64,000 bases of DNA, from contig NZ_JAGHQU010000001.1 in the NCBI RefSeq assembly GCF_017744135.1, forward strand, positions 248,001 through 312,000, written 5' to 3'. Source of the DNA: Endozoicomonas sp. G2_2. Lineage in GTDB: Bacteria > Pseudomonadota > Gammaproteobacteria > Nevskiales > Salinisphaeraceae. Positions 47,652-48,526 of this stretch are shown here, one piece after another; position 1 is the stretch's first letter; each line of letters begins with the position of its first letter. Under the pieces are notes generated by a model. It was not told the DNA's origin and did no database searches. It was given only the letters and a program-made list of their open reading frames with translations. A program made the position numbers and the translations under genes.

Positions 47652-47844
47652 TTCAAACCTCTGGATTCGTGTTTGGTCGTCGGTTGTTCGGTGGGCGTAA
47701 TTTGCGTCGTTCTGAGTTCGCCACGGTTGGTTCGCCGGATCGCTTTGGCTTTAGGCGTGCGTTTCGTCTGGTACGTGCGTGTCGTGAAGTTTCCAGCTTG
47801 AAAACGGGCGTGTTGGATCAACAGCAAGGGTTTGATCGACTTGG
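47652..47844. other. Leader region of the oxygenase gene
   Basis: 193 nt, T-rich on the plus strand, between the oxygenase start and the 610-bp inverted-repeat element. It probably carries the oxygenase promoter, but no clear -35/-10 pair was identified. Complementary arms GATCAA and TTTGATC flank position 47828. Confidence 0.4.
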
Positions 47845-48454
47845 GGTTTCGCACTGCTGTGCGAGCCACTTTTATTTGCTCGCCCAAATAAAAGTGGCCA
47901 AAAAAAGGCGCCCTGTCTTGCGTCGGCGCTTTGCGCCGATGCCCTTCCATCACGGCCCGCAAGCGGGACGGCCGGAAACTCGCTGCGCTCAAACATCCGG
48001 CCGTCCCTGGTCTATTGACGTGGCCGCTTGCGGCCCGCGCTGCTCGGCGCTACGCCCAAGGGAACCCAATACAAACGAAGACCGGCTCGCTGACGCTTCG
48101 CCAACATCGCGAAGCGATCTTCGTCGGACGAGGCCGCAGGCGAGTTCGACCGGAACGCAGCCGCGGGATCCCATTTCTGGCCGGTAGCCGTTCCAACGAT
48201 CGGCGCCGCGCCTGTATTCGGGCCCCGTGTGAAGCGACGAGAAGCACAGGGCCGGAGGGTGTCCGGCGCACGCGCCGGTGCGGCCAGCTGTTTGAGCGTC
48301 GCCAAAGCGACGCGAGTTCTGGCCGCATCCCTTCGGACCGAGCATCGCAGTGCACCGGCGCGCTTCGCGCCGGCGCGTAACCCGGGTGTCTTTTCTCTTG
48401 GTCACTTCTCTTTGGACAAGCAAAGAGAAGTGACTCGCACAGCAGTGCGAAACC
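47845..48454. repeat. 610-bp non-coding element with about 70-bp terminal inverted repeats and dense hairpins
   Basis: The outermost 21 bp are exact inverted copies (47845-47865 and 48434-48454). They are followed on each side by a 13-bp hairpin with a 6-nt loop: left CCACTTTTATTTG (47866-47878) pairing with 47885-47897, right TCACTTCTCTTTG (48402-48414) pairing with 48421-48433. Similarity continues to 47913 and 48384. The two stem copies differ at three positions, each compensated on the partner arm. Inside are further perfect hairpins (TCGGCGC-TTT-GCGCCGA at 47923; a 12-bp stem 47965-47976/47996-48007; GGCCGC-TT-GCGGCC at 48022; others near 48297 and 48355). No credible protein is encoded. 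Confidence 0.85.
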
Positions 48455-48526
48455 AAAGGAACGACGAACTCGCGAGTACCGAAAGGCGCAGGGCCTAAAA
48501 CAGTGGCCTTTGCACTCTGCCCAACG

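Follow-up and report, generated by a model that had tools for sequence, protein, structure and literature searches.

What kind of element occupies positions 47845-48454 of the window, the whole stretch of 64,000 nt of DNA that was analysed? The initial annotation had read this 610-base repeat as a non-autonomous mobile element or a structured RNA. That reading was partly right, and both of its halves found support: the mobile half by copy number, presence or absence at two orthologous sites and paired ends, and the structured half by strong covariation. The two-unit build, the pseudoknot with its putative triple helix, the conserved flanks and the wide range had been missed.

Extent and copies of the element

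The 610-base repeat consists of two head-to-head units, each read outward. Terminal inverted repeats, a feature of IS-derived MITEs, are present: the arms (47845-47906 and 48393-48454) are 62 nt long and 84% complementary, and the first 21 bases are identical between the two ends, as first described. The end hairpins at 47865-47898 and 48401-48434 are fully paired, with the 6-nt loops and the three differing, always compensated pairs noticed earlier; the stems measure 14 bp, not the 13 bp given then. Further inverted repeats were found in the interior, in line with the hairpins reported there. Long ORFs overlap the element, yet in none of the 29 copies that could be examined did a simple codon-usage gene caller predict a gene, which agrees with the earlier view that no protein is encoded.

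The borders first drawn were too narrow. In the alignment of 26 full-length copies, conservation reached ~47807 on the left and ~48482 on the right, about 28-38 bp beyond 47845-48454, and the whole element with its outer conserved flanks therefore spans approximately 47807-48482. The left outer flank (47807-47844, minus strand; GAGTNTTTGAATCAACGG..CTTGG type) is conserved among copies and the right outer flank (48455-48482, plus strand; AAAGGAACGACGAACTCGCGAGTAC) is kept in the aligned copies, while one copy (C29:217608) carries the left-type flank on both sides. The outer borders are fuzzy, and a comparison by eye found no match to the intergenic sequences of related genomes; no exact target duplication was defined.

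The repeat is not single-copy. Thirty diverged copies, including that of the window, were found in the window's genome (G000), 29 with two ends and one with a single end. Besides the window copy, 25 near-full-length copies and one partial copy matched at 71-86% identity, and three shorter copies were matched piecewise. By length, 26 copies had at least 590 bases, three had ~500-550 bases and one had the single end. The mean pairwise identity of the 26 aligned copies was 0.77 (range 0.68-0.88, 70-bp flanks included). A covariance model of the 71-nt end, built from the genome's own copies, yielded 59 matches in G000, all of them ends of these elements (29 pairs and one single); scoring covered 150 of 1,937 first-look candidates, and weak solo ends may have escaped it.

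Predicted pseudoknot and triple helix at the ends

Read outward, each end has the order S1 - L1 - S2 - loop - S2' - H1. Comparison of the ends indicates that each can form an H-type pseudoknot, in which the loop of the 14-bp hairpin pairs with the upstream strand S1, together with a major-groove triple helix. The compensated hairpin noticed earlier forms only one part of this larger pseudoknot unit.

The right unit (48236-48454, plus strand) was matched by both the core model and the end model (G000:C11:296384-296454:+). Its S1 strand TGTC (48387-48390) pairs with the loop bases GACA (48415-48418), and its L1 linker TTTTCTCTTG (48391-48400) is the proposed third strand of the triple helix, TTTCTCTT fitting the S2' strand AAAGAGAA in parallel register at 8 of 8 positions. 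The S2 hairpin (48401-48434, loop 48415-48420) is followed by the H1 hairpin (48435-48450). The left unit (47845-48048, minus strand), read leftward as core and then pseudoknot end, was likewise matched by the core model and the end model (G000:C11:295845-295913:-). Here S1 (47907-47912) and the L1 linker TTTTTTTG together occupy 47899-47912; this L1 is shorter than in most copies and the triplex match is 6 of 8. The loop of the left S2 hairpin (47879-47884) pairs with S1, and the left H1 hairpin, TCGCAC-loop-GTGCGA at 47849-47864, shows one covarying pair across the 26 copies. No promoter-like site was found in the central stretch (48049-48235), which separates the 5' ends of the units.

Loop and S1 covary as TGTC/GACA, TGCC/GGCA, CGCC/GGCG, TATC/GATA and others. 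Pairing between them was possible in 119 of 137 distinct ends, compared to 46.6% (sd 2.8) when loops were shuffled, with no such pairing scored in the remaining 18 ends; outside the genus it was possible in 66 of 78 ends, compared to 38.3% (sd 4.6).

The pyrimidine linker L1 matches the purine strand S2' in parallel register (T.A-T, C.G-C, and G opposite T), the arrangement that a triple helix in the major groove demands. Among the 137 distinct ends, the mean match was 7.28 of 8 positions, compared to 6.40 (sd 0.047) for shuffled controls; it fell to 6.64 with L1 reversed and to 6.58 as a Watson-Crick antiparallel duplex. As the sequences are related, the shuffled controls for this match, for the loop pairing and for the core overstate significance. 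A full 8-of-8 match was found in 74 ends, versus 13 (L1 reversed) and 11 (antiparallel duplex). Outside the genus, the match was 7.47 versus 6.65 (sd 0.066) shuffled, 6.67 reversed and 6.67 antiparallel, with 8 of 8 in 57 ends versus 7 and 10, respectively. A duplex between L1 and the stem in place of the triplex was rejected for its poorer fit. At the best register, A faced T in 810 of 827 cases, G faced C in 137 of 160 and T faced G in 23 of 27 (133 ends, rows scoring below 5 omitted). Of 26 C bases in S2', 14 faced C and 11 faced T. With a single register fixed for all ends, the same set gave 746/833, 107/167 and 19/30 for A to T, G to C and T to G. G opposite a T-A inversion is the known third-strand choice in pyrimidine-motif triplexes.

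The first triplex count used 188 ends, of which 184 were parsed and 133 were distinct, with duplicates and about eight weaker matches omitted. The recount took every full-length match at E 0.01 or better, 224 ends in all, of which 9 could not be parsed and 137 were distinct; the figures hardly changed. An earlier module finder that worked without the end model admitted false positives and was dropped.

Core fold and strand preference

Upstream of each pseudoknot lies a core composed of GCCGAG, the stems P2 (GCAUC/GAAGC, with a conserved A.A mismatch), P3 and P4, which are stacked, and an apex, often TGTYTGAG..GCGAGTT. The core model (R2) detected both cores of the window: the left one (47946-48048, minus strand; P2-P3-P4 stems, apex TGTTTGAG..GCGAGTT) at 31.5 bits (E 3.3e-7) and the right one (48236-48352, plus strand; CGAGAAGC..CGAGCATCGCAG) at 48.3 bits (E 3e-11). 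Among 52 core units, string matching found TGTTTGAG in 15 and TGTCTGAG in 16, and a second apex type made of two hairpins occurs in Methylomonas and others.

Covariation in the core was above that of shuffled alignments. It was 0.616 compared to 0.177 (sd 0.020) shuffled and 0.11-0.26 when slid, in 19 units picked by apex sequence. In 52 model-found units from 34 loci, it was 0.738 compared to 0.167 (sd 0.011); these loci were chosen because they had matched in an earlier search of 92 loci, and the 52-row alignment was fitted to its model, with 20 rows from G000 and two rows repeating training rows. Interior helices also covary among G000's own copies. The structure of the element, as read from covariation, is well supported. 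No curated RNA family searched reached its threshold on the element: Rfam 15 gave only sub-threshold microRNA matches for the window stretch and one further unit (L104; E 0.39 and 0.65), and at gathering score two matches in 16 loci, both away from the end modules.

Wobble pairs favoured the strand read outward. In S2, G.U cells outnumbered A.C cells 73 to 12 on this strand, 45 of the 73 at one stem position; outside the genus, the bias was smaller (25 to 6, with 11 G.U at that position), and in the core the numbers were 33 and 10. This bias points to single-stranded RNA or DNA as the probable functional form.

Arrangement and genomic sites

Copies occur mostly as outward-facing pairs. The loci fetched because they matched, many from this genus, contained 91 pairs of neighbouring ends no more than 2.2 kb apart, of which 83 faced outward, and the spacing of most end pairs was ~270-630 bases.

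The presence of the element differs between related species at the two sites tested. At the window site, it lies between genes for a biotin-dependent carboxylase and a 2OG-Fe(II) oxygenase (Pfam) in G000 and two related genomes (G003 and G005), and the same genes are ~60 and 74 bp apart without an element in G011 and G012. At the second site, downstream of an MgtE gene (Pfam), the element is present in G000, degraded in G012 and reduced to a remnant in G011; no end match was found in the 1,500 bases fetched from the other 11 of 14 genomes, the next gene following directly in G005, G004 and G008, and other sequence standing there in G003, G007 and G002. Loss of copies could explain such differences as well. 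When G003 is compared with G005, the orthologous element has hardly changed in one half and differs in the other, including the whole end module, which suggests exchange between element copies.

Copies in G000 lay between convergent genes in 17 of 29 cases, with 11 in tandem and 1 in divergent settings (simple codon-model gene calls), compared to 48 convergent, 131 tandem and 48 divergent background neighbour pairs in the same loci (element pairs <1 kb included). This excess would suit a bidirectional 3'-end module that serves the host. Read-through of each convergent gene would then yield RNA that includes the far unit in sense orientation, and the triple helix would shield or end this RNA, much as eukaryotic ENE elements protect poly(A) tails. 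The outward strand is also the one favoured by the G.U bias, and in a Pasteurella multocida record a complete 458-bp element (L123:2608-3065), close beside xerC, separates dapF from a DUF484 gene. We nevertheless hold a host-serving module to be unlikely, as related species do without the element at the same gene pairs, the copy number within the genome is high, and two copies already have ordinary terminators beside them (by eye). One terminator-like site was found, compared to a mean of 1.6 in shuffles, and no promoter-like site; an intrinsic terminator or promoter was rejected for want of any excess above shuffled sequence.

Low-GC genes lie between two units in Methylomonas and in G165, where some cases may be two neighbouring elements. 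They encode a NYN protein, a methyltransferase, membrane and unknown proteins, and one RAYT beside REP-like repeats. Nine outward-facing pairs are more than 800 bp apart, each of which may be one gene-holding element or two neighbours; L177 looks like more than one element. In three Methylomonas species (L166, L177 and L190), the facing ends are exactly 1784 bp apart and the middles share no long match.

Among the ORFs of the long end pairs examined (12 run against Pfam, others judged by eye), the only transposase-like one was the REP-flanked RAYT of L166, and no full-length IS with the same ends was seen. An ordinary MITE moved by a dsDNA transposase, its hairpins acting merely as cruciforms or binding sites, would account for the long terminal inverted repeats and the intergenic, multi-copy occurrence. 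Recognition of dsDNA would need neither the one-strand bias of G.U over A.C nor the parallel third-strand match, and with the scarcity of transposase-like ORFs among those inspected this makes such a MITE very improbable.

Range across genomes

All 14 genomes of the genus, G000 included, and 26 of 41 relatives in all had matches to the element, and copies of the same type were found in contigs of Salinisphaera japonica and S. hydrothermalis, which makes Salinisphaera the probable source of the window. The end model matched at least 91 of 369 genomes drawn across the class, a lower bound since 13 candidates were scored per genome.

A hairpin-only DNA pattern detected at least 118 stretches in GTDB species genomes. 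Among the matches listed, with those at locus edges omitted, 112 of 115 distinct ones had a linker match (score 7-8): 72 in Pseudomonadota, 19 in Bacillota, 9 in Bacteroidota, 7 in Thermodesulfobacteriota, 1 each in Myxococcota and Latescibacterota, and 3 unassigned. The opposite side of the hairpin gave a linker match in 1 of the 115 listed, a weak control, given that this side of the stem is pyrimidine, and for loop pairing among the matches listed the counts were 95 against 34. Several pattern matches are MAG contigs, and where a phylum is represented by a single contig, misbinning may be the cause. The end also occurs in one Fusobacteriota record (Ilyobacter). The core gave no good match in 32 end-hairpin loci of Bacillota, Bacteroidota, Latescibacterota and Fusobacteriota (one weak, E 0.038); with no match in 31 of these 32, the end fold is the only part shown beyond the Proteobacteria-like groups. 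Judged by these matches, relatives of the end fold occur in at least six bacterial phyla, and the core was found only in Proteobacteria-like groups.

A phage origin was rejected, as no phage record matched. The pattern found 2 viral contigs, of which one, an IMG/VR contig (L119), contains a full unit and may be host or prophage-border DNA. A plasmid element was also rejected, the 610-base query having no match there; the 55-base end was found in 14 of 72,556 plasmid records, all typed non-mobilizable. In E. coli, no match to the 55-base end was found in 20,395 records.

Relation to known repeats and structured RNAs

REPINs resemble the element in having two inverted, structured halves as the dispersed unit, compensatory changes and intergenic sites, as reported in the open-access text of PMC3116915. 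They differ in that their REPs measure 20-40 bp and the units of the element ~200-220 nt; the element also has a pseudoknot with a triplex match and tips without GTAG, and some genomes that carry it have no Y1 match. By eye, no GTAG-tagged REP hairpins of 20-40 bp were found at the tips of the 59 ends, which read GGTTTCGC or one or two tip bases fewer. The TIRs of TIRtrons, according to the open-access text of PMC3733652, likewise form moderately abundant families of long inverted repeats with no relation to REPs; the reported ones enclose a Y1 gene and some have GGGGWSAS in common. Neither feature was seen here, and the element may still overlap with these TIRs.

A RAYT-type (Y1) transposase that acts on folded ssDNA might move the element in the manner of a REPIN or a TIRtron. 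This reading would draw further on the location of REPs downstream of and between convergent genes and on RAYT-like genes bordered by long TIRs that bear no relation to GTAG REPs, both reported in the same text (PMC3733652). Y1 is commoner in genomes with the element (72 of 91 versus 169 of 278, not corrected for genome size or kinship), and one Methylomonas element (L166) encloses a RAYT. This is the one case seen here of a tyrosine transposase gene flanked by the repeat, and the gene sits inside apparent GTAG REPs of its own (by eye). Nineteen of the 91 element genomes, including the single-contig G400 with 11 ends, had no Y1_Tnp match, so a RAYT is not required for the presence of the element. 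The RAYT partner suggested by the initial annotation was not borne out in G000 either: no copy is adjoined by one, and of two Y1 matches, C11:230526 is ~49 kb from the nearest copy and C22:392 is on a copy-free contig. Together with the GTAG-free tips, these data render movement by a RAYT quite unlikely.

Structured MITEs such as ERIC, Bcr1 and NEMIS share with the element a non-coding, structured and multi-copy nature; the open-access text of PMC3733652 gives them 70-300 bp with TIRs of 15-30 bp, whereas the element is mostly 350-700 bp and its end fold has relatives in several phyla.

Telomerase RNA and the SAM-II and preQ1-II riboswitches contain H-type pseudoknots with a major-groove triplex and are single functional RNAs. 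The predicted end module has their S1-L1-S2 topology, with L1 as pyrimidine strand on the S2 purine strand and a parallel L1:S2' correspondence read from sequence covariation; unlike them, its fold caps both ends of a repeat. OLE, GOLLD and ROOL are large ornate RNAs, long, highly structured and bacterial, with an obscure role; to our knowledge they do not occur as many-copy head-to-head pairs. The element is likewise long and highly structured, but it is many-copy and head-to-head and has no Rfam match.

Searches of the open-access literature, together with passages of PMC2267715, PMC10969869, PMC8632094, PMC6429828, PMC3733652 and PMC3116915, yielded no description of the element in their text. 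Any novelty would lie in the architecture, head-to-head units with predicted triplex caps; in being a palindromic repeat with dispersed copies, the element has much in common with REPINs and MITEs.

Proposed explanation

On balance, we consider it probable that this dispersed repeat is a non-autonomous mobile element, and that an enzyme acting in trans recognises its folded ends. The outward strand would fold when single-stranded, either as RNA or as ssDNA during replication, and the folded ends would then be the recognition substrate of the trans-supplied enzyme. Copying or excision would require both ends, so that the pair would be the unit of selection; the interior would be mostly free, which would allow relatives to hold unrelated genes there. 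Copies would survive chiefly downstream of genes, where their presence costs the host least.

If this explanation is right, bacteria widely carry a structured nucleic acid in the form of a common intergenic repeat without a curated RNA family, and its triple helices would be natural and replicated, with a base code (A to T, G to C, T to G) readable from evolution. It would also raise the question of which enzyme reads the folded, triplex-capped ends, and whether it does so on RNA or ssDNA. Only tentatively do we propose a new class of mobile element, whose mobile form would be a structured RNA or folded ssDNA: two head-to-head units capped by triple-helix pseudoknots, amplified in trans, with caps in several phyla and foreign genes carried between them. 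Such a class would correspond, in bacteria, to a SINE or to a cassette carrier.

Additional observations

Seven Burkholderia records were matched; in one of B. cepacia, an end module (L124:2994-3068) lies between annotated aceF and lpdA. In G121, L088-L092 and L078, many of the 12 listed ends are bordered, by eye, by dRS3/CGTC-REP-like palindromes (ctggattcc..ggaatgacg). Element ends form a tandem array with a period of ~749 bp in Pseudoalteromonas (L121:2250, 2999, 3747), and four end modules of the same score and orientation were found in G287 (L080 and L081), for which the end model detected no partner. In G302, the sequence just outside the right H1 is tandemly repeated (L102:4691 onward). 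A RAGATH-18 RNA match (L160:2046-2107) was located ~720 bases from an end module in a Selenomonadaceae contig.
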